Source: Arbacia lixula (taxonomy: Eukaryota > Echinodermata > Echinoidea > Arbacioida > Arbaciidae). From it: 64,000 bases of DNA. The notes under the pieces are model-generated. The model had not been told where the DNA came from, searched no databases, and saw only the letters and a program-made list of their open reading frames with translations. The position numbers and the translations under genes were made by a program. Of this stretch, positions 7,661 through 58,474 are shown one piece after another (the first letter of the stretch is position 1; each line of letters begins with the position of its first letter). Where the stretch lies: positions 18,445,432 through 18,509,431 of the forward strand of contig OZ022589.1 of the NCBI GenBank assembly GCA_963669155.1, given 5' to 3'.

Positions 7661-8769
7661 CTGCGCAAATGATCAAGAAGTAGAAAAAAGATTAATTTCC
7701 CTTTTGGAAAAAAGTGTGATTTCTTTGGATACTTAATGAATGTACTGTGCTGGAGAATCCACATGGCAAGCATACGAGTTTTTTTCTTGTGTGTTTTATG
7801 AACATTATAATGTCAAGTTTTGTTCTACGTTATTCAAATCGGACGGTATTGGCTACAGGGCTGTTAACCTAGTACAGAAACAATCGAATTGAATCGAGTT
7901 GTGCAAATGGACCTGTTTCTAAACGAGTTCAACTAGGTGTTGAAAATTTAAAAATGAAAATAAGTTATAACTCAAATCAAGCTGATGAAATATGAGAAAA
8001 TTGCTCCCAAAAACATTGCATCCTTTGACTAATGATTAGTGACTTTCAGGTTGATTCGAGTTATTTTTTTAAATTTAATTTTAATCATTTTAAAAGTGTC
8101 CACAATTCTTTTTAACACGTAGAGGTATTGAACTGATTGAACTACGCACTGGTTTATTCCCTGAACATGCTGAGAGATTGAAGCGACTGACCTTTTGAGT
8201 GCTTTGAGGCCTGCAGGGTCGTAGATGTAGTTGACCTCGAAGTCTCCGAGCGGGTTGGTGCCGCGGTCACTGAGCAACCTCGTGACCAGCATCACGCTCA
8301 CGGTCATGTCCTTGGAGGGAAGCTGCGCCAAGACGTCCTTCTCATTTCGCTCCAGCTGATTGAGAATAGGGACGGAGCAGTTTATTGATGGATTTAGTCT
8401 TCTACTTACAGATACCGCTGAAGACAACAGTTTGAAGGCGACAGCAGAACACTCTGCGTTATAACATGACTTGCGCTACTTACAATTACTTGTATAACCA
8501 TGACTACTAGTGAAAATGATCGAAATCTATAACTTGGTCGAGATAATGCGACATATTATCAATGAGAAACTGGTATTTGGCGTCTGTCCTCATAAACCCA
8601 TTGGAAGTGGACTGCATACTTTTACTTAAAAAGTGTTGGCATTTGATCGAACCAAAAACATGTATTGGAACAGCATCATGACAGCTACGATTATTGACAA
8701 GTTCTACACTCGTCATCCTCGTTTCATCGCCCCTCCTCCTTTCACAAACGCACACAAACCCACACACAC

Positions 8770-8830
<61 letters not shown>

Positions 8831-11800
8831 CACACACACACACACAAACACAAACACACACATGAACAATACCTTATCTGTGGGCGGTTGACCAAAAAGA
8901 AATGACGGGTAGTTTGGGGGAAAGCCGTACTCGTCGTACTGCGAGAAGTTGGACGCGGCGTGGCCGACGCTGCTGATGAAGATGAAGTCGGTGATGACCT
9001 TCGTCACCTCACTACTGGTCTTAAAGCAGCCATCGTTGGGCACCCCCTGTAAAACGACAGTTAGAATGTCCAATTTGTTTCGGCTTCTACAAAATGATTC
9101 AAAATCTTCATGTGGTATAATAGGTAACGCCATATAATTATTTCAAAATATAAAACATGATAACGTTGGAGAGCAAATTCTCGCGGATTGTTCAATAATT
9201 ATATTTATATATGCCTTAACGTTGTACTCTCCGCTATGTTGAGTTTTCCATTGTTATGATTAATGTGTTTTTACTATTCATCATATGCAACGATGTATTT
9301 ATGTATTTATCTAGTTTCTATGTATTATGATTACTTGTTATTTTATTTGATTTGTTTATATGTAATGTGATTTTTACTGTACAGGGCCCCTGTAGAGCAG
9401 TTTTTTAACTGAAAGGGCTACCCTGTATAAATGAAACTGAATAAAATAATATAAATGAATAAAATAAAATGTATTATTTGCACTTCGTGTAGGCCTAAAG
9501 AAGGTAGCTAAACACATTCTTAGAGCCCCCCCCCCCCCCCCCGGCAAACTCTTGAACCTTTTGTGAGTCAATCAAACTTGTGTTCTGTGAGCTTTGTCTG
9601 TATTATTTGCACGAACATACACCATTGGCGCATACAGAGCTAAGAGAAATAGGAAGAGCTGACTGACCTTGATGGCGCAATGTTCTTCGGCTGACTTCCC
9701 GGGGGCTAAGGTCTTGCCCCAGGCCTGAAGCTCGAAATCTCCGCTAACCTTCTCCTCAGAATCTGCAGCAAATCGGACCAGATGGAAACAAATTCTCATT
9801 ATTTAAAGCCCATCTATTCAGCAAAGACATTTAATAACATGGATGTACAACTTTGTTTGCTTTTAGATGATTGAATAAATCTTTCAATGAAAGAAAACAT
9901 GTACATGTATGCATAACTATTCATAATAATCCTTTGACACTGCTTTTTCAATTATGCCGTATTCTTATGTTGTAATGTTTTGCTTTGGGAATTTATGTAT
10001 TAGTATTTCTATGGAAGAAAAAACATGCATGACAGCATTTTTTTCGGGACATAACATTTATTTTCCTCCTTGATATTGTTATATGTTATTGAAGAGACCG
10101 ACGATTTGTTTCATATATTAGATAAACCAACATGCACAGTTTGACGTATAACTGGTTTAATGGAAAAGTATAGATCGCTGAATCGGTAGATACTGTAGAT
10201 AAATGGACGGTTTTGTAAATGCCAGACAAAAACAAACAGTATCTTCCGATATGATAAGTTACATGGTTGTGTTTCCATACCGTAATGATGATCGACGACC
10301 GCTTTCACGTAGTTATGTATCGCTGCACGGACCAGCAAGGCATCATCCCGGTAGTGATAGTTGGGAAGCACTTCCGGGTCATCGACTCCCCTGTCCGCGA
10401 GGTCACTTGGAAGGTGACCTTGAACGTCCAGGGACCAATTTTTCCAGGTGCGTTTGATGATCTCGAACATGCCGATTCGCCCGATGGCCATGCACTGGTC
10501 AACCCAGCCGCCTTCGCTTACCAGCTTGGCCAGAGCACGACTGTCGACGGACAAGACAATAAGGAGCAAAATATGGTGATGAGATCTAATGTTATATAAC
10601 ATTAAACGTACTTGTTAATCGGATTTTTTTGAACTATGATATCAATGACAAGATCAGTGTGAGCACTGCTCTCCACAAGGGCCCTGTATTAATATTTCCC
10701 TGTATTAGTATTACCACAGTCACTTGATCTTTGGATCCTACCTGGGGGTGTTTCACCAAGCTGTTCGTATGTTACGAAGGAGTTTACTTTATTGAGTTTG
10801 ATTTAGAAATGGCTGAAAGTCAGGCTATGCAGCCATGGTTGTAGCACATACTCCTGCGATGGCTGCTGGGTTCGAACCCCTACCCATCAGATCATAACGC
10901 TACTAGATCCACTACATCTAACTCACGTATTGATGGCGATAAGATACAAGAAGTGCGGTGCCAGCAGTCTGAAGAGGGGATGCGACGGGGAGAGGTTGCG
11001 ATGGGTTGCCACGGCAACGGTCTCGATGACGATGTGGGTGTAGCCGAGGTGGGTAGCGGATTGGTGGAAGGAAGCATCGGCGTTGTTGAACCACATCTTG
11101 GCCATGAGCCACAAGTATTCCTGGTCGGTCGGGAGGAAGATCTGGAAGGAAGGGAGAAAGCATCGAATATTGAGATTGTTATCCACTAAGTCATCATATA
11201 ATCATCAAGCCATTCTTGAATTCATTCATTCATTCATTCTTGCATTAATTAATTAATTAATTAATTAACTTGTATCGTTGTCCTTCAATAAATTAATGTT
11301 CACTCCTCCCCCTTGAACATTCAGTAATTAAAGGACGGCGTCATAAGTTGATTTCGATACAGACAAACACATTATGGCACAAACAGATCTAAAAACGATT
11401 CGATTTTGAATTTGGGTTTATCACATGCGAGGTGCTCTCCAATATGTTGCGTACAATTTTTTCTCGAAAATAATATGCACTTTCTCAAAAATACATGAAT
11501 CCTTTTACCTGTGCATTTGATGCAACATTTATAAATACGTTTTTACACGCATAACTGTGCGAAAAAACCCAGAAAAAAAAGATCAATTCATGGAATTATT
11601 TTGTACATAACAAATGGGAGAGCACCTCGCACGTGACGTCACAAAATTGAAACTTCAACTCAGCATAAGTTTCTAATCCTTTGACGGATTTTCGTCAAAC
11701 CTTCACTGATATGTTTTTTTTTAATGTTTCTGCTTTTATTGAATACAACTTTTCTTTAGTGTGAACTATCCCTTTAACGGACTACCATTACATAAAGAAG

Positions 11801-12197
11801 AATCTATGGTCAACTCACCGGATTATCCTCAGATGGATCTTGGAAGAGCTGAATGGCCAGTGGCATGAGGTTCTTGTCCTTGTTCACGAAAAATAGGCCT
11901 ATTGGAGCGCAGATCTAGGAAGGTATAAATGAGAATGACGACGACAATATATGAGTAATTGTACCCAAACTATAAACTGACTAGTTGATAATGAAAATGG
12001 CAGTATTGAGAACACCCGTAACAATACTACTTTACCTCTTACTATTGACATTCCTATCACATGTACCACTACTGCTGCTGCTTCTTCTACTACTACAATT
12101 ACTACTTCTTCTACTGCTTCTTCTACTACTACTACTACTACTACTACTACTGCTGCTATTTCTCCTTCTTCTTCTTCTTTTTCTTCGTCTTCTTCTT

Positions 12198-12260
<63 letters not shown>

Positions 12261-12269
12261 TTATTGTCT

Positions 12270-12329
<60 letters not shown>

Positions 12330-15300
12330 CTATTCCTACTTCTTCTTCCTCTTGTATAGCATCTTTAACTTCTTATTATACGACTAATAACTGAAATATA
12401 AAACATGTGGTAGACATTAAAATAGATGTTATACGCACTGAGCGAGACTCGGAACAAGGCAGGTCTCGAAGGATCTCGTAGTCTAGAATGAACAGCCGTT
12501 TCTTCTCGATGGCTTCAGCAATGGTCATGTCTTCCATCAGTGGTTTGAGCATCTCGTCCTTGACAGGAAATCTGGCAAGGAGAATACGTGTAATCGTCCC
12601 TTCAGAACAGTTGACATAAACTTGTACCTGATTATAAACACATCCTTTCTGTTTCCCCTGGGGCAGGCTTTTTATGAACGTTTAACATAATCTGGGTCAT
12701 GTTGCATAAAGGTTTTATTATTTTAACTTACCATCTATGGTAACTACCATGACAACGGCCAATGAGCTCTCATTATTGCTCCTGTTACCACGGTAGTTAT
12801 CATTGATTGTCTGTTAATAGTAACTGAAAAAATCTATCTGCAATATGACCCTGTTCTGTTGAAGTTATGAAGGAAATATAGTATATTTAGTATATATACA
12901 GTATATAGAGTATATATATAGTATGTAGTATATAGAGTATATATATAATATATAGTATACAGTATATAGAGTATATACATAGTATATAGTATAAAGTTTA
13001 TAGTAAAATGAGTATGGCCTGCTATACGGAGTATTGCTGAGAGACGGTCGACTTACTTGGCAGGGATCGCCTTGCACAGTCTGATCTGGGTAGGGTTGCA
13101 TCCAGTCAGACGCTGATAGCCAAATTCTTTGTCCGACCGCCAGTTCTCAATGCCCTAAGAAGACAAACATATCAATCGATTGAGTGAATAATAAACATAC
13201 TGTGAAAACCTACAAACAATTCATTATTAATGCACAATGAATTGGAATGGTAAGTGGACACATTTAGAATTTTGAACAAACATGATACATGCAGTTTGAA
13301 ACTACCGATCTATCAAAATAACATTTTGATTGAGCATCATCTACAAATAACTTACTAGTCAACTTAACGACCAACCAGATAATCAATTGTGTAGCCAGAT
13401 GACAAATTACAATTTGGAATATTCATTTTAACCTAACATATCCCGAGTGTGGAATTAGGACATGGATTTGGAGGATTGCCATTTTTTATTATTAGCAATC
13501 TGCATGTTGATAGCAAACTAACTTTATCAACAGCAACGAATGTTTTAAAACATTGACCAACAAATTAGGTACCAAACCAGCAACAACGAGCGAACGAAAT
13601 AACTACCTGGCAAACATAACCCAACAATCAAAGATAACCAAGTAAAAAGTAGATACCAGTTAACTATGCAACCATCGAAAATAAGAAGCTTGCTATACAA
13701 CAACGTACTGAAGTAACTTACGTATGGTTTGGGCATGTTTCCCTGGTAGAGTTCCCCGATGTCGTCGAGCTTCGTCCAGGCACCGGTGGACAACTTGATG
13801 AGTCCCGCTTGGAGCATGAGACTCGCTTTCATCTTCACAATGTCCCACTGCAGAGGAAGAACAGAGACTGAATCAACGGGCATTCATACATAAGAAGGGT
13901 CATATTTCACCAAGATGTGCGCAAGTTACATACGACTTTTACGCACGACGCACGACATGATTCTTGTGCTAAATGAGATGAGTTCCTGTTTTAGTGGGAG
14001 TGAATTTCCTGATATCCTAATCAAATTTGACAAATTGTAATCTTCGTATTCAGAACATTATTAACAACAAGAATTTAAACGTGTAAAGATCAGAATTCAA
14101 TTTAAGCTCATGGGAATCAAAATTATTGAGAATCTGAATTGGTATCCAAGAATAGGTACTTGCGTACAGTCCTGATCAACTGATGCACATCTTGAAGAAA
14201 TACTCCCCAGAAACATTAACGCTTCAGTATGGTACGCAAATAGGGTAACCATTTATGCGCCATTGAGGCATTTTTACACTGGTAATTAAGACGATTCCAA
14301 CAGGGAATTACTGAGTCTGGCAGTGAAGGAGTTAAAGTAGGTTTCCAGTTGTATTATTGGGAGGGAAGTTCTTATACAGTTTCTTCTTTCATTTCCGTGG
14401 GTTTTAAAAAAATTTTTTTTTTTTTGACCTCCAAAAGGGACATCCTGCCTTTAATTTATTTCCATTAACCAACTTTTCGGCAAGGCGGTAATCATGCATT
14501 TCTGAAATTCTGGTTTGATTTCCTCACCTCGCCCATCCTTAAATCAAGGAGTCAATAGAGTGGCAATTTACAGTACCCCTGTAATATCAATGATAGCCTT
14601 ATCAATGCGTCGAAGAACTCTATACTTACAGAGAAGCGCGATGTGTACCAAATATTTCGTTATATCTTAAAGGAACATTTTAATTGTAGTTCAAGGTAAG
14701 TGCAAAGCTTTAAAATCCCTTAAAAATTTGGGCCTCAGGCCCTATGGTTATCAGTAGAAAAAGGCAGCGATTTGTTTTTACGATTATACAAATTGTAACT
14801 GTACAGATGTCGAGAGGATGTTTTGTTTTCTTTAACAGCGAGGTTTTTAGTTAACTTACCTTGTAGTCATTTGAGAATGATTCATCCATCGGGAAGGTTT
14901 TAATCTGCAAAGAAGGAGGGAAAAATCAAAGAAACATGAACAAATTCATTGCAGACATGTACTTGACGCCAAATATCCCCATTACAACCGGCAATAATGT
15001 GCAATGTTATGCGCGACAACTGACCCCAACTCGATCTACCTCATTTTGTAAAATGAGAAAAAGAGACCGACGAACAAAAAAAATAAATACATGAGCATGT
15101 GACCAGGAGCAAAAGAGAATAGAAGAAGAAGGACTAGACGAAAGCGGAACCAGGAAAGACATGAAGATAAACATGTAAGAACGAGAAGGCAAAACAAAAA
15201 TAGGAGATCAAGAAAGAAGAAGAAGGAAGAGGATGAGCAGGAGGAGGAGGAGAAGAGGAAGAAGAAGAATAAGAAGAAGAAGCAAAGACGAAGGGGGAAA

Positions 15301-16244
15301 CATCGGCTCATACTCCCAGCCTTCACTAATCCGAAACTATAGTATCCGAATTGTCTTTAATGTAATCCAACATAGAGTACCGACATGTGACGTCATAGGG
15401 GCATGTTGTCAAGACAGCTGGTTGTAGTCTATGAGAGTAGAGCGAAACGCAGTGATCATAGCGGTGACTCTTATTGGGAGTGACCAACACTAGCCCTCTA
15501 GACAGTGTCGGACCAGTGAAAGTCTCACTTGAGTGATGTGTTTTAGAACCAGACCGGCGTAACAATGGATATGACGACATAACTTCAGGACCCTCTATGA
15601 GCGTGCGTCTCGGGAGTGCGCGCGTCACAATAGAAGAGGTCATTTGTGGCTTCACTCATGTGGTCCCACGCATAGCTGATTGTTATCGAAACCCCACGAA
15701 GCCTTTTAGTGACAGTTGAAAAGCAGTTGTATGGGACCAGTATAACACAGGATCGTTGATAGAAAAGGTTTTTCCATGCAAGCATTTTGTATGCAACGAG
15801 ACAGGATTTCTGATACTATCTCGATGGTGCTATGTATATTGGCAAAAACCCAATGGGAAAGCGAGACAATTTAAAACACAACATATTAATCCTATTGTAT
15901 GTATATTATTGCATTGTATTGTATTGTATTGTATTGTATTGTATATTTACCATTGCTTGATATGATAACGATGATAACCATCACCACCATATTCAGCATA
16001 ATGACCGTTTAGGAGGTTCTTATGTAGCACATAATTTTTGTGGCCTAGATTGATAATTTTTTACTTCTGCAATTCGCTGAATGAGAATTAAACATAACAT
16101 CTGCTACTGAATTGTTAAGTAGAAGATAACGAAGAGGAGCAGTTTAAATCTCATTAGGGACAGAAAAGGAGAGTTACGGAGGAGAAGCAAAACGAGAACC
16201 CCAGCGAGAGACACAGAGAGAGAGATAGAGAAAGAGAGATACAT

Positions 16245-16275
<31 letters not shown>

Positions 16276-16356
16276 AAGAGAGGTAGAGAAAGAGAGATAC
16301 ATAGAGAGAGAGAGAGAGAGAGATAGAGAGAGAGAGGTAGAGAAAGAGAGATACAT

Positions 16357-16389
<33 letters not shown>

Positions 16390-17594
16390 GAGAGAGAGGT
16401 AGATAGAGAGAGAGATGGAGATAGAGATAGAGATGGAGATAGAGAGAGAATGATAGAGAGACATCCTGGGAGAGATAAGTAAAACGTACGGTCAACGAGG
16501 AGAAATATGGAAGAAGAATCAGAAGAATACCAAAAATTATAAAAGAAAACAACGAAATCAAAAGAAAAGTTAAGCGACGGATCGATCCAAACCTGAAATC
16601 ATGCATACGTTCTATGATATGGTTGTATGCCTCATGATACATACAATATGTATGTTTTCAATCATAGGTGTAAACTTCAATTCATATTATTCCATATAAA
16701 GGCGTTCATAGGACATCAAGTTTTATACCAGTTATATGCCCCCTGACATAAAAATACATGTCGTTGCGGAACACTTGCGGAACACAGCTTTATATCGTAG
16801 TCATATGCCATTTAACATACATACATATTCATATATATATTTTTAAGCCTGATATTTAATGCATATAGTTTACATTGTATATTTTCTTATTCACCTGCAG
16901 GATTATAGTTTCAACCCAGCTTTACGTCTCCTTACATACTGATATATATTTCCGAGCCTAAGAGTTAATGCGTACACTTAACATTATTATACTTAATCTA
17001 AGATTCCCATGCGTTGTGTATAGTTACATCCCAGTCATATGCCACTGATTATCGAGCCTAAATATATAGGTGTTTATTTTCTGTCATGTACTATTCGTTG
17101 TTTACCTGCGGGATAAGTCCTTCCACCTTGCACTCAAACTCATACAGCTGCCTCTTCTTCAGCATCTCGAACTTCCTCTGTTCGATGTGTTCATCGTCCT
17201 GCGGCAAGCACGTATCGAACTCCTTGATGATCACTCTCACCCTTTCCCTGATCCACCGATGGACGGGGAAGACGAACACCTTCTTCAAAGCAACGTGCTT
17301 CACCTCAACTAGGTCCACGTACCAGTCGTCGTTGTGCCCGCTGTCATCCCTCCAGAGCTCGATGCTGTCGATCGCTCCGAAGTTCGGCAGGTTGGTGACG
17401 GGGAAGTGGTCGGCGGATCCCCGCTCGAAGTCGTCCTTGAAGCGGCAGTCGAGCAGCACGTCCCGGGACCGCTCCCCGCGATCGTTGTGCAGCGCTACGT
17501 AGACATTCGCGTCCGTGCCCGCACCTTTGCGATCACCCGTCCATACCGAGACTTGATAGTCCGGCTTCGTTTTGCGAGATGACCCGCTCCCCAT
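7546..17594 (-). CDS. LOX-A: PLAT-domain lipoxygenase, complete 12-exon gene
   Basis: Coding exons in transcript order: 17594-17106, 14904-14860, 13847-13722, 13154-13057, 12571-12439, 11914-11819, 11141-10927, 10540-10281, 9762-9668, 9046-8873, 8355-8192, 7660-7546. All junctions are GT-AG, phases are consistent, and the total is 2010 nt (669 aa). The product is a non-haem iron dioxygenase that inserts O2 into polyunsaturated fatty acids. The PLAT/C2-like domain is at about residues 12-125 and the catalytic domain at about 165-669. Visible iron ligands are His355 and His360 (in FHQSATH), His548 and Asn552 (in GHAASN), and C-terminal Ile669. Ala398 at the Coffa position predicts an S-lipoxygenase (inference). 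The N-terminus MGSGSSRK fits N-myristoylation. It is divergent from LOX-B and has no allene oxide synthase domain. LOX identity is secure; the exact product specificity is not known. Confidence 0.95.
8757..8864. repeat. (CA)n microsatellite in LOX-A intron 10
   Basis: About 108 bp, mostly CA on the plus strand, so (UG)n in the LOX-A transcript, just after the exon 10 donor at 8872. LOX-B and LOX-C carry UG-rich tracts at the same place. Confidence 0.97.
8873..9046 (-). CDS. LOX-A exon 10: third histidine ligand and Asn ligand
   Basis: 174 nt, phase 0 at both ends, encoding 58 residues from GVPNDGCFKT to GQPPTDK with SSVGHAASNF (His548, Asn552) and YGFPPNYPSF. The donor (gtattg) is followed within about 10 nt by a long (TG)n tract on the coding strand. 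Skipping this exon would keep the frame but remove two iron ligands. Confidence 0.95.
10927..11141 (-). CDS. LOX-A exon 7: first two iron-ligand histidines and Coffa residue
   Basis: 215 nt between ttccag and gtgagt. It encodes [20 protein letters not shown] and FHQSATH (His355 and His360), then HPLFRLLAPHFLYLIAINT. The spacing from the first His to the Ala of AINT is 43 residues, exactly as in human 5-LOX (His367 to Ala410), so Ala398 is the Coffa-position residue. Confidence 0.95.
11421..11640. mobile_element. Foldback MITE, family 3 (copy in LOX-A intron 6)
   Basis: The left end 'tcacatgcgaggtgctctcc' mirrors the right end 'gagagcacctcgcacgtga', with inner mirrored 'gttgcgtacaa' and 'ttgtacataac'. 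Similar sequence continues to about 11775 (fall in 'tcgtcaaaccttcactgatatg'). Related segments lie at 20085-20245 and 21340-21640. No coding capacity. Confidence 0.65.
12066..12352. repeat. CTA/CTT trinucleotide repeat in LOX-A intron 5
   Basis: About 285 bp of CTA and CTT triplets with interruptions. It gives spurious Leu- and Tyr/Phe-rich frames. On the LOX-A transcript it reads as TAG/AAG triplets. Confidence 0.95.
12692..12853. mobile_element. Palindromic MITE, family 1 (diverged copy, LOX-A intron 4)
   Basis: Starts ctgggtcatgttgcataaag and ends in a partial inverse (ctgcaatatgaccctg). It has the internal mirrored 'ttaccatctatggtaac' blocks and the 'gccaatgagctctcat' centre that separate this subfamily from copies with the 'ccaatcaaattcaa' centre. 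Confidence 0.65.
12876..12998. repeat. TATAGTATA-type minisatellite in LOX-A intron 4
   Basis: About 120 bp of degenerate 'agtatatag' units next to the exon 4 donor side (exon 4 ends at 13057). Confidence 0.85.
13848..14859. other. LOX-A intron 2, no further gene seen
   Basis: About 1 kb of AT-rich sequence with a poly-T stretch at about 14408-14426. No repeat boundary or exon was recognised. Confidence 0.4.
15207..15290. repeat. GAA/GAG-rich purine tract in LOX-A intron 1
   Basis: Polypurine stretch on the plus strand (polypyrimidine on the transcript strand). It creates Arg-rich and Ser/Phe-rich spurious frames. Confidence 0.9.
15373..15598. mobile_element. Palindromic MITE, family 2 (copy 2, LOX-A intron 1)
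   Basis: Starts tagagtaccgacatgtgacg and ends with a diverged inverse (atgacgacataacttcagga). It shares 'gttgtcaagacagctggtt' and the 'acactagccctctagacagt' core with the copies at 5593 and 51986. Confidence 0.75.
15904..15945. repeat. (GTATT)n microsatellite
   Basis: About eight pentanucleotide units in LOX-A intron 1. Confidence 0.9.
16206..16455. repeat. (GA)n tract with GATACATA interruptions in LOX-A intron 1
   Basis: About 250 bp of GA dinucleotide. A higher-order unit of about 53 bp ('gagatacatagagagag...gagagatagagaaagagag') is iterated two to three times. Gives spurious Ser-Leu frames on the minus strand. Confidence 0.92.
17106..17594 (-). CDS. LOX-A exon 1: myristoylation-type N-terminus, PLAT domain and linker
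   Basis: 163 codons from ATG (context gtcgagATGG) to a CAG/gtaaac donor. Gly2, Ser5, Ser6, Arg7 and Lys8 form a typical N-myristoyltransferase target. The PLAT domain begins at DYQVSVWTGDRKGAGTDANV and includes WRDDSGHNDDWYVDLVEV, the loops that usually coordinate Ca2+. It ends with VFPVHRW, followed by a charged linker (RKFEMLKKRQLYEFE). The whole membrane-docking module is therefore in one exon, separated from the catalytic exons by a 2.2-kb intron. Base composition is GC-richer than the flanks, as for the other LOX exons. Confidence 0.95.
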
Positions 17595-18004
17595 CTCGAC
17601 TAGTACAGTAAAACAAGCTTCCTCTTTATTGCTTTACAAGTTCTTCTTAGTTTCAGGTATCTCGAGGTCTACAATATCAACAAATCATGAAGGAATATCG
17701 GGTGCAGTCGACCTGCGCGCATACTAATAGTATCATTCCAGCGTTCGACGGCGAGGGAACTTGTTTATGCTGGTATCCACGGTCACACACGGGATTGGTG
17801 AACTAGCGCATTATAAGCCTATTCAGGTAAAAATCGATGAAGTAATGAATGGGTCTACGCAACGCCCCGTCCAGCTTCTTTATAGTCGAACAAGTAAATA
17901 AAGAACAAATACTACGAACTATTCAAGCGTATTTACCTTTTTGATGTATCTGTTGTAATCCTGTTCACACTCCGTACTCTATATTGTAGGACAAAGGGAT
18001 CATG

Positions 18005-18130
18005 CTCGCTATTCCGAAGGGTTGTCATTCCTTACTCGAAGGTTTTTTTTTTTTTCCAAAGGTTCGTTATTCCGAAGGCAAGTTATGCCTAAGGTGCGTT
18101 ATACCGAAGGCTTGATGTTCTTACGGTTCG
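18005..18130. repeat. Short degenerate tandem repeat (TTCGTTATTCCGAAGGC units)
   Basis: About five imperfect units of 19-25 bp built on 'tcgttattccgaaggc', interrupted by a poly-T run. Confidence 0.7.
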
Positions 18131-18596
18131 TTATTTCCACTTGCAGTTTGAAAGGTTGCACAAGAACACCAGACAAGAAGGTGACTGCATCACAGTTGTC
18201 GTTTTAACCGTGAAATGTATGTCATTGGAAAGGTCCTTTTTCCCGCAATTCTGGTCAGGTTTTAAACACATAACCCTGCAAGATACAAGACATATTAAGA
18301 GCAGGCTAAAGGTTGACATGACATTAGGGAAAGACATCCACTCTTCAACACAGTGTTGAAGGAAAACCTTCAATATTTTAGTCACATTGCGAGGAGAGAT
18401 GGAGAAAATCTGGAGAAAGAGAAACAGAGGAAGGCAGGGCAGAGACTCAGGTGGACTGATGGCATTGTTTCCACAACTTACATGTCAATATGCCGCTGCT
18501 ACTCAAAATCGCAGTCTCGTCGCGAATAGAGAGCCTTTATCAATGGGGTCACGACGAGAACTCAGCCATGAGTACAACGACGATGACGAAAGTTTG

Positions 18597-18597
<1 letters not shown>

Positions 18598-18646
<49 letters not shown>

Positions 18647-18660
18647 GCGCATACACACAT
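18598..18660. repeat. (CA)n-(CG)n compound microsatellite
   Basis: A CA run passes into a CG run of about 20 bp and then back to CA. Alternating purine-pyrimidine, so potential Z-DNA. Confidence 0.92.
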
Positions 18661-20084
18661 AGACACACAGACAGACAGACACATTTACATACATACGCGC
18701 GTACATAAATGTTGCATACATGTATATCACTCTTTAAATGTTTTAAATCTTCCATTTTCAGGCCTATTTCATTTTGTCATACATTTTTTAAAATGGATAC
18801 ACATTTTATTTTATGTTCTGTTTTGATAATCCATGTGTTAGGATGTGGTTTGTTTATCCTTTGCGGACAAAAGGCATCACATGTATTTTTTTTTCTTTTG
18901 GGATGTATCGTTAAAAAAATTGTGTTTGCCTGTGAATTGACCTAGAATATGACGAATCTTTTATATTTCCATCGGCAGTACATGACCAGACGTCATCTCA
19001 TCGAATGGGTTTATCATATCCCCGCCTGAATAACTAAATAACTTTATACCCAAATACATGCGTGGTTGTTGGACAGGTGTAATTGTTTTATTCTCCCATT
19101 CCCGATTATCCAGGCTTTCGTTTATTAGACAATTACAGGTATTCTCATTGTTTTGTTGTTTGATGCTGTCTTTATGACGGCTTTGTCGGTGTTCTCTTTC
19201 TTGTCCAGGTGCACTTGTGTGCGTGCAGTGTTTTCGTGTGAGTGTGCGTGCGTGTGTGTGAGTATGCTGATTTCTTTTCTGGGGACCTACCCCCACAAGC
19301 TTCTGCTTTTCTGTAGGTTCCCCCACATAACTTATTATATAACTTCAGATAAATTAAATGTACATTCTGTAGATTAATTTATACATGCTGCATGTAAGAT
19401 CGTTATTTTATATCAGCTATATATTTCATTTTATGTATACATGCGGGTATTACTTTTGTTTGTTGTTTGCTTCGATCTCCAGATGTATGTTACAAATATT
19501 ATTTTGTGGAAAACTTGATAAATGAATGAATGAAAAAAAAACCATGATGTTACGACAAAAGAACAATCTCGCCCACATCTAACGTCTGTGAATGGGCCGT
19601 ACTTCGCCTCAGAACTCGCAGGGTGAGCTATTTATACTGTTATGTTCTCTTTCTAGATTGTGAACAATAAACATGTTTAAGCTTCCGTGCCATGGTTTAA
19701 GTTGAAAGAGAAAGTGCAAGCTAAAGTCAAATTTTCTCTGAAAAGTCAAATGTAAAAAGCGCGTGGGCGCGTGCTATGCGAACAATAATGTGCACACAAT
19801 CGCTATGAACACAATAATTACCTCAGTACACACACCCTGTCATGGTTTATTGGGCATCGTGGTTATGTTGATGTTGTCCATCAAACCACATTTGAACAGG
19901 AATTGCATGTTGACATAAAGCATACATTTATTGATATTGTATCAAATGAACAGTTTATCTTACCATGTTTTTCCCTTCAAAATGTTTAAGAGGATTGTTC
20001 AAGGCCAAATATAAATGAGCTATCATACTAAACATGTACATCATTAACGTATGACTTATGTATGACGTCATGTACATGTAATTA

Positions 20085-20245
20085 TTTGGTACACAACATA
20101 TAGGAGAGCATCTCGCACGTGACGTCACAAATGTTATAACTTTATTTTCCTTTGACCGATTTTCATCAAACCTTCACGAATATGTTTCTTTCATGTGTCT
20201 GCTCTTATTGAAACAAACATTTCAGGGTGAACTTTCTCTTGAAGT
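20085..20245. repeat. Family-3 repeat fragment
   Basis: Shares 'gagagca.ctcgcacgtgacgtcac' and 'gattttcatcaaaccttcac.aatatg' with about 11610-11775. Only the right part of the element is present. Confidence 0.6.
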
Positions 20246-20284
20246 GAATCTAAACCAAATCACAAACCGTTCTGTTTGCAGAGC

Positions 20285-20420
20285 ACATCATTCCTGTCAC
20301 TCGGCAAACAGACAATAGCAGACGAGAGTGGGCCAATTGATGACTGGTACGTCGATCGAGTCAAGGTTGATAGTGTTGATTGAATGAAGGAAATCTACCT
20401 ACGCCCTCGCGCTCACTGAC
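20285..20420 (+). pseudogene. Decayed lipoxygenase PLAT-exon fragment
   Basis: Reading from 20321: DESGPIDDWYVDRVKVDSVD, then TGA at 20381-20383, then MKEIYLRPRAH. The intact LOX-B exon has DDSGLNDDWYVDLVKVDSAA followed by LKKVFVFPVH, so the two align without gaps. The upstream part keeps an open frame (SFLSLGKQTIA) but has lost clear PLAT identity. The stop and the absence of the rest of the exon show it is non-functional. Same orientation as LOX-B, 1.8 kb upstream of it. It records a fourth LOX copy or an exon duplication between A and B. Confidence 0.82.
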
Positions 20421-21339
20421 ATCGTAAACCCCATGGTAAACATTTTCCTTTGTTATGCAGACAAAAAGATTGATATTGAATTTTGTCCGCCTAAAAAAAA
20501 ATATGTTCATAATGTGAAGTGCCGCTTTTATCCCTCAAGGATATCTAACTATTCAACGCTTGGGTAAAGACCTATGTAGCTTCAAAACACGATAAAAGTC
20601 ACCATACCTATAGTTAGCCCAAGCACTGTGATCTTCAACATGTTCAAGAGCGTTTTCTCTCAACTTCAAACCATTGTATGTTTGGTAGCTATGGTGAAGC
20701 ATACGATTATGATTTTGCTTGTTTTACAATCACATCGTTACATGAAACATATGTAAACTGTAATTCCACTATAATATGATATTGTTATAGGTTCGTGATA
20801 AACCATTAGTAACATAGATGATCTGTATAGCTATGAGAATTTTTTTTTAGAGAGTGTTACATTCCGTACACTATAGAGTACCGCAGCGGTGCCGTCATAT
20901 CCATTGTTCTGCCGCTTTCTGGGTCCTGTGTCTGCATTTGACATATCAGAATGCCTGTGACATCACACTTAGGACTCCCGCTAGTATTAATGATGCTAAA
21001 CCATTTTTTCGAAGAGAATGCTAAGTCGGATGACCTCTCGTGTATCAATACCGGATCGGAATTTTCAGACAAATTGATAGCCTTTCTCACGAAGCTCAAT
21101 AATTAATACAATATCAGGTTGAAATATTGACAATTGTGTTAAATGTGGGGCGAAATATCGTTTAAATCGTGGATTATTCAATGACTTGATGTGTAACGCA
21201 TCATTTTAATGGAGATTGTTACGCTTTCAATCCGTTATTTTCTTTGGTTAAATCGTGATACCATGTTAATGCTAGTCTAGGCAGACATGTCATTCCTACT
21301 CCCCCTGAAATTAAATTGATATTATGAATAGGAGATGGC

Positions 21340-21640
21340 ATGAAAGAAACACATCAGTGAAGGTTTGATGAAAGCCCGCCACAGGATAAGAACGTTATGA
21401 GTTGCTGTCCCATATGTTGTGTACGATATTTTTTTTTCGAAAATTTGCATTTTCTCAAAAAGATATGCGCCCTTTTACCTGTGCATTTGATACATTATTA
21501 GAAATACATTTTGTACACATGCCGTTCATATATGAAAAAAAATAATTCCGTTGTCAAATACAGAAAAAGGGCAATTTATGGAATCATTCTGTACATACGG
21601 TAGAGCAGCTCGCACGTGACGTTACAAAATTTCCAAACTT
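21340..21640. repeat. Family-3 foldback repeat (second full-length copy)
   Basis: Begins in the reverse sense ('catgaaagaaacacatcagtg', 'ggtttgatgaaa') and ends 'gagcagctcgcacgtgacgt'. The middle ('tgtgtacgatattttttttt', 'cccttttacctgtgcatttgat') matches 11440-11515. Confidence 0.6.
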
Positions 21641-22233
21641 AGCGCTGAAATTAATATTACCATTAAATCATCATGTGCCAAGACCGAATATCGAGACTTT
21701 TTCAATGCAAGTACAGTTCGTAGGTCAGAAGAGATGCTTAAGCATGACGTAGTATCAGATTACGAAGATCTTAACTATAAACTTTACCTGACCCGCCTTC
21801 GTAACTTTAAGCGTGATTTGGGGATATCGTGGAATGTAAGCATTCAAACCTCTTGGTGCAAAACACACCCTAGTGCTCAAATAACAGGTGAGGCGTGTCA
21901 TTCACCATGCGCGTTCAAACGAACTTCAGTTTAGGGAGACATCCTCCATGAATATTACTGTGTGACTAACGACTTGATGCTTGCTACGTATTAGATAGTG
22001 GTGGTTGCTGATTGGTTTATCACTTATCTCACGCAAGAGCAACCCAATCTGCCTCGCCCTTCTTCGACAGCGTATTATTAATCGGGGTAATGCAAGTGTC
22101 CACAGCAGGATATTCCATCCATGGGTTTTGGAATGGAATGACGTGATTTTCTTTTTAGCAGAATTAAGCACAGCATTGTACCTAAATCCAGTAAGGAAAT
22201 TAAAGGTTATTTTGGCACAATTTTGTTTTCAAG

Positions 22234-22722
22234 ATGGGAAACTGTTCATCCCGTAAGTCGACGCCAGACTACCAGGTATTGGTGTGGACAGGGGATCGCA
22301 AAGGTGCAGGAACGGACGCAAATGTCTGTATAGCGCTGTACAACGATCGGGGAGAGCGGTCCCGGTATATTCCGCTCGACTGTCGCTTCAGGAACGACTT
22401 CGAGCGAGGATGCATGGACCGCTTCCCCGTCGAGAACCTGCCCGAGTTTGGTGCGGTCACGTCCATCGAGCTCTTGCGAGACGACAGTGGGCTCAATGAC
22501 GACTGGTACGTCGACCTAGTCAAGGTCGACAGTGCGGCCTTGAAGAAGGTGTTCGTCTTCCCCGTCCATCGGTGGATCAAGGCGAATGTGAGGGTGGTCA
22601 TCAAGGAGTTCGATACGTGCTTGCCGCAGCACGATGACCGTGTCGAACAGAGGAAGGCCGAGCTGCAGGAGAAGCGACAGCTGTACGAGTACGAGCAGAA
22701 GATGGAGGGATTCATGCGACAG
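22234..22722 (+). CDS. LOX-B exon 1: lipidation-type N-terminus, PLAT domain and linker
   Basis: 163 codons, start context caagATGG, donor cag/gtcaac (weaker than consensus; the open frame runs on for 26 codons into the intron). Gly2 and Ser6 followed by Arg7-Lys8 fit N-myristoylation, and Cys4 is next to it. The PLAT domain runs from DYQVLVWTGDRKGAGTDANV through DDSGLNDDWYVDLVKV to VFPVHRW. The linker EQRKAELQEKRQLYEYEQK is probably helical. Confidence 0.94.
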
Positions 22723-25700
22723 GTCAACATAATCTATCATTTTAACATTGTATATAGCTCCGTTTACAATCAAGTTGTAACCTTAAAAGTTATTCCATAT
22801 TGATATTGAGACCTACAATCAATAAAAAAGACATAACTCTTTATGTTATATCTGATTTAGAAGAACACAGTAAGTGGTACTTTATGTATCATCAGAAAGT
22901 TAACCATCAATCATCCTTGATTCGGTGATTTCCTATGAACTGACGTTTGACTATTCTTTAGGTAAACTTTTTATATTTAACAACGAGTTGTTACATGTCT
23001 ATTTTCTTTACAGTTTTATATGGCGGGAAAGACTACAAGCACAATTTCTATCAAACTTATAATATCATGATATCTCTTCATGAGGCATGTTAGGTAGGAA
23101 TATTGTACGACCTGAAATTATTAATATTATTTCGCATGGCACTCGCAATGCCTGTTTGAAACCGTTTGAGGCTAAATAACCTTTTTGGGTGAACAACGAG
23201 GGGTAGGCATTTCTCACTCGTTCTCTAGTATAGGATATCTGTGCACTTCACTGCGTTTCTTATCTGCACCTGCAAGCTATCAAAAACAATATTATCCATG
23301 ATTTAAGTTCTAGCAAAAGTTACCGGCAAATTGTACCTCACGCACGGACATTAGTTACCTCTAATGCCGTTAATATATATAAAATTATATCGTCTAAATG
23401 TTCATATTAGCAATTTCATGCTTCCGAGCTGTTGGAGATTTCTAATCGAAACTGAAAAATAGAATCAAGTCGTCGCAAGACTTTACCATCTTTTTTTCTC
23501 AGTCCGTTAGGGGAAAGAATGATCAGTCTACTGCAAATGATATTGAATACATGTAGTACTAAGGACGTTTAAGTACATGGATATATCCATTGCTTTGAAC
23601 AAGGTTTGATTCCACCACTTAATATTCATGACTAGCAGCTGCTCTCAACAATATGATGCATATGCGATTGCGTCACGTTCACCTGGATTTTATGATAGGT
23701 AATGCACATTCCTAAATACATACATTTCAGCTTTCGCTGCTGAACTTTTAATTTTTTTCACTAGGAACTTGTTATGTAGTTACAAGCGAATAAGAAATTT
23801 GCTACTTTTTGAGATGGAAATACTAGCTTGGGCGCGGCTGGACACGTTTTTCATTTTACTTATCTGAAAGGAAAATACCTGAAAGCACCGTTTCATGTAT
23901 TTTTTTAGTGGAATATGATGCGGAACATTGTGAAATTTAGACTTGTATGCAGCAACTTGACATCACGTTTAGAACCTTTTTGCCATATTGTAACAATATT
24001 CCTAGATTTAATCTTTATAGATGCATCGTAGGTATTACATTCACAACTGCGCGAGCATATGGGGTGAGGATATTTCCCCAAATTCTCCTGCGCATCTGAT
24101 TTTGTTAAAGGGCATATACTGTACTGGGAAGGCAAAAAAGCCTTCAAAATGTAAATGTTAGCAATCTTCTTGCCCATGGTCTTAAATTCATGTATTGTCT
24201 ATTTTAGAAGCTTGCTGAAAGTTATTTGCCCTCAAATGATCTACATTTGGAGTAATGAGTGATTAAATCACAAATCCTCAAAATGTTCGGGCCGAACATT
24301 TTGAGGATTTAATCATTAATCATTAATTACTCCAAATGTGGATCATTTAAGGGAAAATAACTTTCAGCAAGCTTCTTAAATAGACAATACATGAATTTAA
24401 GACCATGGGCAAGAAGATTGCTAACATTTACATTTTGAAGGCTTTTTTGCCTTCCCAGTACAGTATATGCCCTTTAATACGTCAAATCCAGGCAAAAATC
24501 ATCCAGAGCATCGGCGGCATTGAACATATAGATCAAAGAAAAAATCTTTGTAGCATTCTTGTGTGACTTGAAGGAGAGTAAAATGAATTTGCATTAACGA
24601 AAAAGCTGATGGATATCCATGTATTTAAACATCCTTGATAGTATATACTGCTCTCAGGGACGTGGTTGAAACTACAGGCACAATGTGATCTTTAAACATA
24701 GTGTGCCAACACCCTTTCATTTTACTCTCAAAATTTTAGTTTTCTTTCTTCGGGTAACGACCATGCAAAGAGATGAAGATAAAACGATACCCGTACTTTG
24801 ATTGTGATAGTATCCCCTCACATATCTTTATGGGTCTGGCCTCCTTAAGACCTCTCGAATAAGAAATAAACATGTCATTTGAAGCCATTAAAGGAGTTGA
24901 AACCATATTAATGTACATAATTATTTTTTATGATGTAATGTATCTACAATATTATGTTTCTATTTCTTTGGTTGAACATGATATGTATGAGCATACACGC
25001 CTCATTGACCCAGCTCTTTGATATACAGTAGGTGGTATCATCACGAGATTTTTTTTATATAAATTATATTTGAAGCCATGATCCCACCTTTAAACAGGTT
25101 AATAAACGTGGTAATCATCGTTTACGATGTAATGCAGTTGAGGTATTATTTCCATCTCTCTGATTAAACATGGGATAAATGTAGGTACATGGTAGTACAT
25201 TTGTATATATTGTTCATTTCAGATCAATATTTGCAATCGTTTGCTTGAGTCGTCCGTTTGTCAAACTGTTGTGGTGTTTTAGTCGCATAAGGAGTGAAAT
25301 GCCGTCTGGTATAACATTTCCTCGGCATTATCGATTGATATTTCTGATATTGTTTGAAGCTTACGTACTCCAGTATTGTTACTAGCTGCCCCTGTCGCCA
25401 CATTCCCCTATTTAGTGCAACAAGTTATATGTTCTATACTAAACGATATGGTACATTTCATCTTTCCATCATCGAAGATCATTCATAGGAAAATAGCATT
25501 TGTTCCTCTTCCTCTTAAAAGTACTTCTTATTATCTATCTTTACAAATGAAGCATGTGCACCATACTACGCATTTTAATCTTGCTTTTTAAGATGATGTC
25601 ATGGAGTTGGGCCAAATTTCATTTCTCTTTTTACATAAAATGTCTTATGTCACCACAAAACGAGAATAAAGACAAATCGTTATATCATATTTCATTGCTG

Positions 25701-28700
25701 GTTTTAATTGTGTTAACTACATTCTTTTGGTAATTGTATACGTGTACCTGCAAAAGAATGGGTCACAGTCGGTCAAGAGGGCATTGTTTTAATATCTAAA
25801 GACAAGAGTTAGTGAACACTATAGCTTTGCCTAGTCATAGATCTCTGTCGTTACTGAGCGAGAGCGCTTTACTCGTATCAAATAATTTCTGGTTGGTCGA
25901 GCGTGATCATCGCCTTATGAGTAAGATTGAGAAAGAAGTTATTGCGATTTCTTCTCGTTTTCCTCACCTTCCTCAGTAATTTTTTTTCTTATCCGCCACT
26001 TAATTCTGCTGCATACATGTCTTTATTTCTTACTTCTTCCTCTCTCTTCTTCTCTATCGTATTCTTCTGCTTCCCTCCCTCCTTTTCCTTCTTCTACATT
26101 TGATAAAATTGCAATCTTGCGTTCATGTCCTTCAACGATTTTCACCACTACTCTTTAGACCGGTTCATAACGCGTTTGAATTGGGCCCCTCGCCGGAGTA
26201 AACGGTGGGTGTTCAGCGGCTTTTTGAAGTTTTTTTTCTTTTTTTTTCTTATTGACATGTCGTCTTGTGAGAAAGGAGATGTATTATAGATCTTCAGACC
26301 GTGTTGCAGGTACGGCATGGGAATCCGGTGCTTGAGATGGTTGCAGTGTTGTTCCTTCTTGCCCTCCAGTCTCTTACTTGTCTAAATGGGTTGATCGCAA
26401 ATTTCTTGACGCCATCGTGTGACGCGCGGAGCGTAACAGTTGCCTGGCTCCTTTGCTATCACCTCCCGGTAATGGGTCGTTGATTCAATTCAATTCAATT
26501 CAAGGTTTATTAAAAATCATCTTCGCAGCCATGCAGCTGAATTGCGACAATTTAAAAACAAATATAAATACAACATATGAAATAAGACGAATATCCTCTG
26601 CAAGTATAAATATTTACAAATTCTTATAAATGGTATGAAAACTATAAAAGATAATTATACATTAAACATATTATAAGTTTCTTTAAAATGCATTGTAAAT
26701 TTACTGTACGACAATAAGATAATAACCGTAACCACTTTATGTCAGCATTACAACCTGTCAAAAACATAAGTTAAGGATATATTGCAAAACTAATGCAAAG
26801 TACTGCGGTTTAGGTAGAAACAACATTTTCATCAATAATAGGAACCCCCCATAAATATTAGAAACAATAGTAAATGTAATGAACGTCCCTAAAACGAATA
26901 ATAAAATCGATGTACGGCAAAATTATCATAATTGCAGCTAAGTCACATCAGCATTAAAAATCATGAAAGTATTGTGATAACATCAGTAAGAAGCAAGTGT
27001 TTGGTTGTAAAGTAGGGTATTAATTGATTTTCATTTGAGCTTTATAAAATTCATGGGGAAAAAGCAAACAATTGTAATGGCTGGTTTCTTATTAATGGTG
27101 GTAGATAAAATATATACATGTCTACAAAATAATTATGTAAACTGAATAGTGAGTGTATCAGTTGTACCAAACTTTCAATTTCTAACTTAAGTTACAGGGA
27201 TTCATTTAACACTCTAACAAGGTAAGGTATCAAGCTTTTTCGGTAGCGTTCTGTTCTGCATTTTATTTCAGTGAGTTTGTGGCTATTTCTGAGGGATGCC
27301 CTTCGAGATGCCCTTGCTGGTGGTAGCCAAGAACGAAAGTTTTTGAACAATTCAAATGCAAACTTTCTGCAGAGCTGGTCTAAGATTACTCTTTTGTAAT
27401 GCGTGCTGATACGAGTTATATTGGTCTGCGAATATAGTTCGAAGGGCTCTTTTCTGTATGAGTTCAATTGAGGTAGTTTGTTGTTGTGTCAGAGAGGAAT
27501 GCCACACAACACAACGATATTCCATAGTTGGTCGAATATATGATGTAAATACTGTGATTAGATCAGATGCTGGCATTCCAAACCGTTTCAACAGTCGGAG
27601 CATGTAGAGTTTTCTCGAAGCGTTGGTAGTTACGTAAGTTACATGGTTCGACCACTGCAGATCGTTTCTGATAATGACACCTAGAAGCTTGATGTCTTCA
27701 CATGTTGGTACTGTTTGATTTCTAAGTTGTATCTCTGCTGGAGGGAGTTGACGGCGTGTGAAAGAGACCTAAAAGGCTTTACATTTTAACGGGTTGAGCC
27801 GCATCCGAGAGACTTCACACCATTGCTCAAATGAATCGAGGCTAGTATGAAGGGTACATGGTGAATTTAGACAACGGCTTTGTGCTATGGTTAGATCATC
27901 TACATACTTCCACCTTCTAACATCTGATGATATAAGAGCATCATTCACAACACTTGGGAAGATCAGTGGACCCAAACGCGTGCCTTGAGGAACTCCAGCT
28001 TCGGTGGAAAGTGAGGATGATAACTGACCTCGGTAACGGACCTGTTGTGTACGCTCGGCCAGAAATGAACACAGCCACTGGATAAGAGAAGGTCTTGCTC
28101 CCATTGTGTAGAGGCTATTTACAGCGACATTGTGGTCGACGAGATCGAACGCCTTTGAGAAGTCGGTAAGTATGACCGTAGTAACATTGTTGGGTTTGTC
28201 GGCATTTGATTGCAGGTATTCCAAGAGGCTCAACAGATAATGGCTTGTTGACATGCCGCGACGGTTCCCAAATTGTTGGGGATCTATTGATATGTTGATA
28301 TTGCTTGAGTGCAATTTACTTCTGAAGCGGAACCTACCACGGTCCTCTTTGCACACTTCAGCTGGCCATACATGACTGCCTCGGGGATTCTAGTGTCAGC
28401 CATCCGCACGACATATCCCACCCAACATACCAGGGGCCAGCTGAAGTGAGCATAAGAACAGTGCCCCGTTGAATAAAACTTACCATTAATCGTAACTCTG
28501 TCATCAATGGTAACTAACATGGCAACATCGCTCAACAGCCAATCAAATTCAAGGTTTGCGTAATAGTTGACACTGGAAGCAGAGTTGCCATCAACGACAA
28601 ATTTTATGCAACAGGGTCCAACTCACTAGTCGTGCGTAAAATCATGCGCAGCTTAGGAAAACACCCCCCCCCCCCCTACTCTAGGTTTGTATAGGTCGTC

Positions 28701-31700
28701 GATGAGTTGTCCACGTATCACAGCCATACAGAAGAAAGATTAGAATAACTGCCTTGTATAATCCTGGACCCGTTTGCATAAAACTTACCATTGATGTGAA
28801 TTTTGTTACCAATGGCAACTTCTATGGAACCTAGAATTTGATTCGCTGTCGAGCTGTGTTTATTGTAATTACCATTGTTGACAAAGTTCTCACTGATGTT
28901 AAAGTTTGTGCAACGGGGTCCTTGTTGCTAGCTTCACACCATGCGCAGCCATTAGTCGATGGCGGAGTCATCCCAAAGAGGGAGCTGGCCTTAAAATCCT
29001 ACTGAGTGATTTCTTCAGTCAGGAAAAGTGTGTTTAAGAGAACACCGCTGGCGGAACAAAACTTCTCTACCGACTTCAGAGGATTGTTTATTGTCACAAC
29101 TCGTAGTGATATTTTATGTGGACAATAGGGTAGATCAGCGCGGTCCCCGCGGATGATAAACAGTCTAAATCTGCTCGATGCCCGAGTGGACATGTCCGTG
29201 ATGAATTGTAGGGTCTGAAGTACTTGGACCAGTTTTGCTTATTCATCTTCAAAAGCACGTAATCTGTCAGCATGTCCAGCGCCTGAGCTGGTAGTCCTCA
29301 AATGAAAACAATCGTTCATCGATCAGATTTGAACTGTAAATACATTATGCACATGTTGTAGAATGCCTCAAATACCTAAGTGTAAACACAATGAGCATAG
29401 GGTAAGGGGCAAGGACACAAGTTGTTACGGAGAATGGGTCTGCTATCTCTCAACACTCCCACAGCCAGCAGCCCTTCTTGGGAGGATTGAATGAGCTTGA
29501 CAAAGTTATCAGGCCATCCAAGCATGGTTAGGATCTTCCACAGGCCGTCACAGTTCATGGTGCCAAACACCGTGGTAAGATTAGCAAATACCTGTCTAAG
29601 TTTTGCTCCTGACATTTATCCTGCATGTTTTGTCTAAGCGGCTAATATATAGTCTGTGGTGCCTCGGCCTGGTCTAAACTCACACCGTAGTTCGGGGAGG
29701 AAGGTCCCTACCATTTGCCCTATCACTATATTGTAAACGATTTGTGCCGGGATCTTTCCAGCGTATAAAGTTGTACTTTTGGGCGTCTTTCAAGTCTTGT
29801 ATGACTTGCATGGCACTGTTTCCAGACAATATTGAACGAACGAGTATAAGTTTCCTTATCATGAAATCACCCTCATTTTGTCATCTCGACAGTGATTTCG
29901 TCAGCACCAGGGTACCTGTCTGGTGACCTGCCTGACGAAGTATGTTTGATGGCGTTGTAGACCCCATGTGATAGTGAGGGCAGGTCCAGGTTGTAGCCTT
30001 TGAGGTATACTATCCAGAGCGTCCCCTGACTTTGATAATGGCCGGCTTAGGAGATAATTAAAGGCTTACTAAAGTAGAAAAATAAGTTCCCACTAATCTA
30101 TGTAAAATTATCCACTAAAAACGAATTTCACATTCCTTTGCCGTAATAAAATCTCATATTGACGAAAATTTGAAAAAAAACGCACACCTCCAGTGACTTA
30201 GAAAGTCAAAATGCCATAAATGCCACCGGCGTGAATAAAATATTTTATTCACGCCGTTCAAACAATACGTTACCAATGGGAACCCCAAAGCATGTCCGAG
30301 GTTTGTCCGAGTAGCAACAACAAATAGATTCAAAGTGCATTCCATCCATTGAATATGAATGACAAGATACAGGTGAATGCAATAACGCGTTACTACGCAG
30401 TTAGGGGGAAAGTTATGAATACATTACGAAAGTGGTCTATTGTTGACTTCCGTGCACGCCGTTGGCATTTATGGCATTTTGACTTTTCTGACGTCAATGG
30501 ATGTGTGCGTTTTTTTTTCTTCAAATTTTCGTTAAAATGAGACGTTATTGCGGCAAACAAACGTAAAATTCGTTTTCAGTGGATAATTTTACATAGAATA
30601 CTGGTAACTTATTTGTTTAATTTAGTAACACTTTAAGGTGCTCGACCCAGCGAGTGTGGATGTCTGTCTTTTCTATGAGTAGTTTGCCACCATCGATGGA
30701 GCAGACAGGAACGCTACAACATGACGTGGGACTGCATACTGCTCTGATACCCTCATGGATCAGCTTTGAGCTGTGTGCCTGCAACTTTTGGGTCTTCTTT
30801 TTCCCACCATGATCCCTTGATATGTCTGAGTTTGGGTTGATCCATATGCTTGGCCTGACGGTACTGTGACATGGCTGTGGTTTATGAATTGTAAGTTACG
30901 TACCTGCAGCAGCACATATATCTCCAGTGCCCTGTTGCATAACACTTACCATTGATGGTAACTTTGCTATCGATGGCAACTTCTATGGAAACCTTGAATT
31001 TGATTGGCTGTTAAGCGATGTTACCATGGTAGTTACCATTGATGACATAGTTACCATTAATGGTAATTTTTATGCAACGGGGCTCATTACTAGATCTCCT
31101 GTAGATGGATCCGTGATGTGTTCTTTCACCAGAGTTCAGTTTCTCTGTTGGTGCCTTTTTTTTTAGAACAAGACTTACATTAATACTTGTTTATTAAAAG
31201 GGCCCCTGTGTATTGGCAGCGCTCGTGTGAAAAGCACATCTGATTTGCAATTAAAACTCCTGTGGTGGATTCTTATGACACCAAAAAGATCAATGTAATC
31301 AAGTATGATATTAATTGATTTTCTTTTAATTTCCCTCTGCAGATCAAAACTTTACCAAAGGATGAATCCTTCTCATTTGCATACCAGGTAAGTTTACTAG
31401 TGAGCATGGTTAAAGAATGACATTGAAAATAGTGAACATTTAAGCTCAGATATGTTTTTCCGTTCTACATTTCAGTTGGCCGATGTGTTAATTTTTCTTG
31501 CAGTACCGTAAAAACTATACAGTTGCTATAAATCTGCAGATCTTTTCGCTTGTACTATGCTACTACAGACGCATTTTCTTTAATGGTTGAATTGTTGTTC
31601 TGTTAAGACGTTCGTTTTTCTTTCTCTTATGCCTCATTATACTGATCTATGACCACCCCATTCTAGTGTCAGCCACAATCTGATAGGATACTAGTGTCGA

Positions 31701-35268: not shown

Positions 35269-35321
<53 letters not shown>

Positions 35322-39427: not shown

Positions 39428-39476
<49 letters not shown>

Positions 39477-40489: not shown

Positions 40490-40531
<42 letters not shown>

Positions 40532-58397: not shown

Positions 58398-58474
<77 letters not shown>

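Follow-up and report, generated by a model that had tools for sequence, protein, structure and literature searches.

Enzymes of the lipoxygenase (LOX) family are generally regarded as cytosolic, with Ca2+ recruiting them by way of their PLAT domain. Among the closest solved enzymes, coral 11R-LOX and 8R-LOX combine a PLAT domain with a catalytic domain, and the coral polypeptide starts at PLAT, lacking a leader with Gly2 and Ser6; in the 11R-LOX chain (3vf1) a tag is followed by MKYKI, and because the aligned MG of that chain precedes a His run and this native-looking sequence, we read it as belonging to the expression tag. Human 5-lipoxygenase (5-LOX; 3o8y) and 15-LOX-2 (4nre, 7laf), of the same two-domain family, also begin at the PLAT domain without an acylation leader, while human ALOX12 and ALOX15 begin Met-Gly and have no Ser or Thr at residue 6. 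Here we analyse a stretch of 64,000 nucleotides from the sea urchin Arbacia lixula (contig OZ022589.1, positions 18,445,432 to 18,509,431; hereafter the window), which contains three lipoxygenase genes, LOX-A, LOX-B and most of LOX-C. From its sequence, the leader of 10–12 residues in LOX-A and LOX-B appears to be an N-myristoylation signal common to the lipoxygenase family of this animal, a reading to which we assign a probability of about three in four.

LOX-A and LOX-B lie head to head on opposite strands, with their starts 4.6 kb apart (Table 1). Their exon models, built with guidance from the similarity between the copies, have GT-AG borders throughout and equal exon lengths, a 45-nucleotide micro-exon included. 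The proteins are 70.6% identical, and over the whole coding sequence the synonymous divergence (dS) is 1.00 and the non-synonymous divergence (dN) 0.19. PLAT and Lipoxygenase domains score above the Pfam cut-offs in both. Full-length LOX-A matches best, among solved structures, coral 11R-LOX (3vf1; E 2.8e-108) and the coral 8R-LOX domain (2fnq, 3dy5; E 3.8e-103), which share its domain layout, the N/D-D-F-E Ca2+ loop and an interface Trp; human 5-LOX comes next, the human enzymes matching with E 2.7e-95 to 1.4e-83. Both proteins have an HxxxxH pair, a later His with Asn at +4 and a C-terminal NAISI, whose His, Asn and terminal Ile residues we take to be the iron ligands, and the His pair is present in all eight loci of the genome with a LOX domain (first exon D2, below, lies outside this count). 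LOX-A and LOX-B look like ordinary, catalytically competent PLAT-lipoxygenases with predicted dioxygenase activity. The initial annotation had noted that they begin MGSGSSRK and MGNCSSRK respectively, with PLAT directly after. Both N-termini were found in place, the genes are intact, and the Pfam PLAT match starts at residue 13 in each.

We then looked for the same leader elsewhere in the 606,990,701-base assembly (590 contigs, the window lying on C14). A PF00305 profile search gave 16 matches that group into eight loci, and a PLAT exon was found upstream of each of the six loci other than LOX-A and LOX-B. A protein search for first exons gave 18 matches, 10 of which represent nine LOX first exons (H being split in two), here called A to H and D2. 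The remaining eight, seven on C109 and one on C4, were left out: each is a lone PLAT exon whose alignment starts at query residue 10 or beyond, with its start untraced. PLAT fragments in locus L013 and the relic between LOX-A and LOX-B were likewise left out. D2 (locus L030), found by the protein search, is 93% identical in DNA to D and is counted among the nine; the genome profile search listed no LOX-domain match near it, and it may be incomplete or have a LOX domain below threshold. The starts are MGSGSSRKTK (A), MGNCSSRKST (B and C), MGNKLSRKST (D and D2), MGNKLSRRSK (E), MGDILTKLQS (F), MGVVFSKITN (G) and MGDFISKLID (H). Conservation of Gly2 and Ser6, a check that the initial annotation had suggested for orthologs, thus holds on paralogs of the same genome: Met-Gly, Ser or Thr at residue 6 and Arg or Lys at residue 7 occur in 9/9, and none carries a disallowed Pro. 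We consider the presence of MGxxx[ST][RK] in every one of these first exons the strongest point for a real, though predicted, signal. A pattern search of collections of viral contigs and of genome contigs returned 1 and 14 matches respectively, none of them a relative.

How far such a pattern departs from chance depends on how it is defined. Two reports give the N-myristoylation consensus as GXXXS/T (PMC10908362) and a preference of N-myristoyltransferase (NMT) for Ser6 (PMC1885993). A PROSITE-like pattern is weak when used alone because it fits 19% of random MG peptides; MGxxx[ST][RK] fits 1.6%. Among 38 NMT substrates, 15 match the narrower motif and 33 have Ser or Thr at residue 6. In a home-made scoring matrix derived from these 38 substrates, E falls in the top 0.08% of random MG peptides, A in the top 0.4%, B and C in the top 1.4% and D and D2 in the top 2.0%. 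Ranked by the same matrix, LOX-A is first and LOX-B third among the 57 ATGGGN starts of the window that have at least ten open codons. Judged from sequence features of this kind, the case for a signal is strong in A–E, fair in G and open in F and H. An NMT is encoded in the genome, with three PF02799 matches (best E 6.0e-18).

The leader also shows constraint at the codon level. Between LOX-A and LOX-B, codons 2, 6, 7, 8 and 11 differ by synonymous changes only, codons 5 and 12 are identical, and codons 3, 4, 9 and 10 are replaced. In a neutral simulation, residues 2, 5, 6, 7 and 8 were all kept with P of 0.009, 0.002 and 0.0004 at 0.5, 0.7 and 1.0 substitutions per site respectively. The 60 nucleotides upstream of the two starts are 48% identical without gaps, which by our own estimate is about the expectation for unconstrained sequence at this divergence. 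The synonymous changes under the motif indicate selection on the leader. Across the eight genes compared, Gly2 is encoded by GGG, GGA or GGC, Ser6 by TCT, TCC, TCG or AGC, and Thr6 by ACT. Like the gene structures, the start contexts and the NMT gene, conservation and constraint are read directly from the assembly.

Several points weigh against a myristoylation signal. The support is DNA sequence; conservation was assessed on paralogs of one genome, and the nine share common ancestry and so are not independent. F, H and G score weakly (top 3.9%, 7.1% and 9.0% of random MG peptides), and F and H carry Asp3, which the PROSITE pattern (PS00008) excludes; the other seven, A and B among them, have Ser, Asn or Val there and pass. 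Finally, in A, B, D and H the start codon directly follows an AG, those of LOX-A and LOX-B resembling weak splice acceptors, and a better AG lies 46 nucleotides upstream of the LOX-C start. One alternative is a chance resemblance among recently duplicated genes: A, B, C, D, D2 and E are 71–99% identical to one another in the PLAT exon, so their shared leader counts as one event, and a loose pattern is easily matched. F, G and H, however, are only 36–47% identical in this exon to the A–E lineage and to each other, yet all fit the narrower motif, and the synonymous changes under it reflect selection. We find chance barely credible. It is also conceivable that the start is correct and the leader is kept for another reason, such as phosphorylation or protein binding, with myristoylation absent or limited to some paralogs. 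S-S-R-K resembles a PKC or PKA site, basic residues after Ser6 are common to 9/9, and the Asp3 of F and H is unfavourable to NMT. However, the leaders of the four lineages (A–E with D2; F; G; H) vary in length and freely at residues 3–5, and what they keep, Gly2, Ser/Thr6 and basic residue 7, is what NMT reads; a phosphorylation motif does not explain an invariant Gly at the extreme N-terminus. We consider this explanation unlikely.

A further alternative is that coding begins in an earlier exon, joined by splicing at the AG in front of the ATG, which would make Gly2 internal. Upstream of the ATG the frame stays open for 13 codons in LOX-A and 10 in LOX-B before it meets a stop, and it holds no other ATG there. 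On a scale where 27 genuine acceptors from these genes have leave-one-out scores of −8.9 to 14.3, the LOX-A AG reaches 3.7, a score equalled by 9% of all AGs in the window and better than 5/27 of the genuine acceptors; the LOX-B AG reaches 2.1 (15%; better than 2/27) and the distant LOX-C AG 5.5 (4%). The best AGs of G and H are, in contrast, poor (71% and 59% of all AGs are as good); the figure is 30% for D and 18% for F. In paralog E an in-frame TAA lies four codons 5′ of the ATG with no AG between, which rules out a canonical upstream coding exon there. The start contexts (gtcgagATGG in LOX-A, ttcaagATGG in LOX-B) are good, purine at −3 and G at +4 occur in all eight starts scored (all but D2), and in none of these eight does the stretch from the preceding in-frame stop to the start contain an in-frame ATG. 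A search of both strands of the 4.6 kb between LOX-A and LOX-B, which sees equal-length, gapless, phase-0 exons, found no conserved upstream exon: its best score, 17, was matched by 35/60 random region pairs, and a search of this type within intron 1 recovered the real 45-nucleotide micro-exon with a score of 48. Known lipoxygenases, judged from the solved ones compared, begin at the PLAT domain. The start codons of LOX-A and LOX-B are supported, not proven; an upstream coding exon is unlikely for both genes, and we hold an internal Gly2 to be very improbable. What the initial annotation proposed, N-myristoylation, is strongly supported as a conserved signal by the 9/9 first exons, the synonymous codons 2, 6, 7 and 8 and the start of E, which no canonical upstream coding exon can bury; the modification itself is predicted, and we regard it as likely but unproven.

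Beyond the signal, we infer a modification, a membrane location and second signals that would act as follows. Met1 would be removed and NMT, recognizing Ser6 and basic residue 7, would add myristate to Gly2 during translation. The lipid would then sit some ten residues ahead of PLAT and hold the membrane face of that domain near the membrane. Dwell time would be set by a second signal: in B and C palmitoylation of Cys4, in A and E additional basic residues, and Ca2+ at the PLAT loop. On its own, myristate anchors weakly and is seldom enough for stable attachment. The Ca2+-loop motif of PLAT is kept as D54-D55-F56-E57 in LOX-A and N54-D55-F56-E57 in LOX-B, residues we presume to be Ca2+ ligands. 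Because this loop is kept and one myristate is weak, the lipid most likely acts jointly with PLAT and not instead of it. The initial annotation had suggested constitutive lipid attachment in place of Ca2+ docking, which finds no support here, the Ca2+ loop being largely retained; its proposal of Cys4 as a palmitoylation partner in LOX-B may hold for B and C, and the other seven first exons have no Cys in their first 10 residues.

PLAT is reported to bind membranes in a Ca2+-dependent manner, with an interface Trp (W107 in 11R-LOX) and a cationic partner, K172 (PMC7436259). This Trp is kept as Trp114 in LOX-A and LOX-B. The position equivalent to K172 falls in the 45-nucleotide micro-exon (14860-14904, minus strand; 31343-31387, plus strand) and is Met169 in LOX-A, from the alignment to solved enzymes, and Lys169 in LOX-B, placed by equal length. 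The loop Trp of 8R-LOX (DKWFHNDF) is Arg51 in LOX-A and LOX-B. The idea that membrane-inserting aromatics had been lost and replaced by a lipid was dropped, as that Trp is missing from 11R-LOX too and F, G and H have hydrophobic residues in the loops concerned. An AlphaFold2 model of exon 1, built from a two-sequence alignment, had a mean pLDDT (per-residue confidence) of 45.7 and was used for no claim or fold search.

Table 1. Coordinates of lipoxygenase features in the window and of two first exons outside it (prefix C14, contig positions).
Feature	Position	Strand	Details
LOX-A gene, coding part	7546..17594	-	12 exons, 669 residues; Pfam Lipoxygenase E 1.6e-71
LOX-A exons	17594-17106, 14904-14860, 13847-13722, 13154-13057, 12571-12439, 11914-11819, 11141-10927, 10540-10281, 9762-9668, 9046-8873, 8355-8192, 7660-7546	-	
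LOX-A exon 1	17106..17594	-	MGSGSSRKTKPDYQV; leader MGSGSSRKTKPD and whole PLAT domain; start ATG 17594; PLAT E 1.3e-20 on 167-residue open reading frame
Predicted N-myristoylation signal, LOX-A codons 1-12	17559..17594	-	Gly2, Ser6, Arg7, Lys8, Lys10
LOX-B gene, coding part	22234..41155	+	12 exons, 669 residues; Pfam Lipoxygenase E 2.8e-65
LOX-B exons	22234-22722, 31343-31387, 31749-31874, 32503-32600, 33172-33304, 34070-34165, 34831-35045, 38157-38416, 38750-38844, 39219-39392, 40141-40304, 41041-41155	+	
LOX-B exon 1	22234..22722	+	MGNCSSRKSTPDYQV; leader MGNCSSRKSTPD and whole PLAT domain; start ATG 22234; PLAT E 8.2e-19 on 189-residue open reading frame
Predicted N-myristoylation signal, LOX-B codons 1-12	22234..22269	+	Gly2, Cys4, Ser6, Arg7, Lys8
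LOX-C, last 7 exons	58093..63262	-	89% nucleotide identity to LOX-B over these exons
LOX-C exon 1	C14:18527056-18526568	-	beyond the window; MGNCSSRKST
D2 first exon	C14:18635285-18635767	-	
Decayed PLAT-exon fragment between LOX-A and LOX-B	20320..20375	+	56 nucleotides, 83.9% identical to exon 1 of LOX-B (E 1e-12), with an in-frame stop shortly beyond

The relic between LOX-A and LOX-B has counterparts elsewhere in the cluster (L013:6768-6939, minus strand, and 6392-6454, plus strand), decayed PLAT-exon fragments that point to additional, lost lipoxygenase copies. The seven PLAT exons on C109 (1684-40760, minus strand) are consecutive and perhaps belong to a LOXHD1-like gene. In the catalytic domain (10927-11141, minus; 34831-35045, plus; 61461-61675, minus; and the following exons), LOX-A has Ala (INTRA) at a position that is Gly in LOX-B (INTSG), in LOX-C (INDSG) and in the coral R-lipoxygenases (TIG/TLG); by the Ala/Gly stereo rule, LOX-A would be S-type and LOX-B and LOX-C R-type. 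R-type lipoxygenase products are classically known from the eggs and oocytes of echinoderms. A reverse transcriptase fragment (27769-28356, minus; PF00078, E 3.4e-21) lies within LOX-B territory, in intron 1 or 2, and an exon-like PF07717 (OB_NTP_bind) match at 2420-2731 (plus; E 1.4e-08) probably belongs to a gene for a DEAH-box helicase.

A search of open-access literature, far from complete in its coverage, turned up no N-myristoylated lipoxygenase; passages of two papers tie myristoylation to FSP1 and not to a lipoxygenase (PMC10908362, PMC12905584). Databases may well already contain lipoxygenases from other invertebrates that start Met-Gly. FSP1 (AIFM2) is a redox enzyme of lipid peroxidation placed at membranes by N-myristoylation (PMC12905584), although it suppresses peroxidation and its fold is unrelated to that of lipoxygenases. 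For LOX-B and LOX-C a model is offered by the dually acylated PPEF phosphatase of Leishmania, which has Met-Gly and a nearby Cys; there, a Gly-to-Ala change made the reporter cytosolic and a Cys mutant was misplaced (PMC1885993). That enzyme is unrelated, and its Cys is at residue 3 as against 4 here.

We lean, with less assurance than for the signal itself, towards N-myristoylation being ancestral and family-wide in the lipoxygenases of this animal, possibly in a wider lineage, with the lipid pre-placing the enzyme and paralog-specific second signals (PLAT and Ca2+, basic residues, palmitate) acting with it. The location of a lipoxygenase determines which lipids it meets and when its signals are produced. 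A family-wide acylation signal would add another route of placement to Ca2+-dependent recruitment through PLAT and would connect NMT inhibitors with oxylipin biology; if the reading is correct, acylation, and not Ca2+ alone, localizes oxylipin synthesis.

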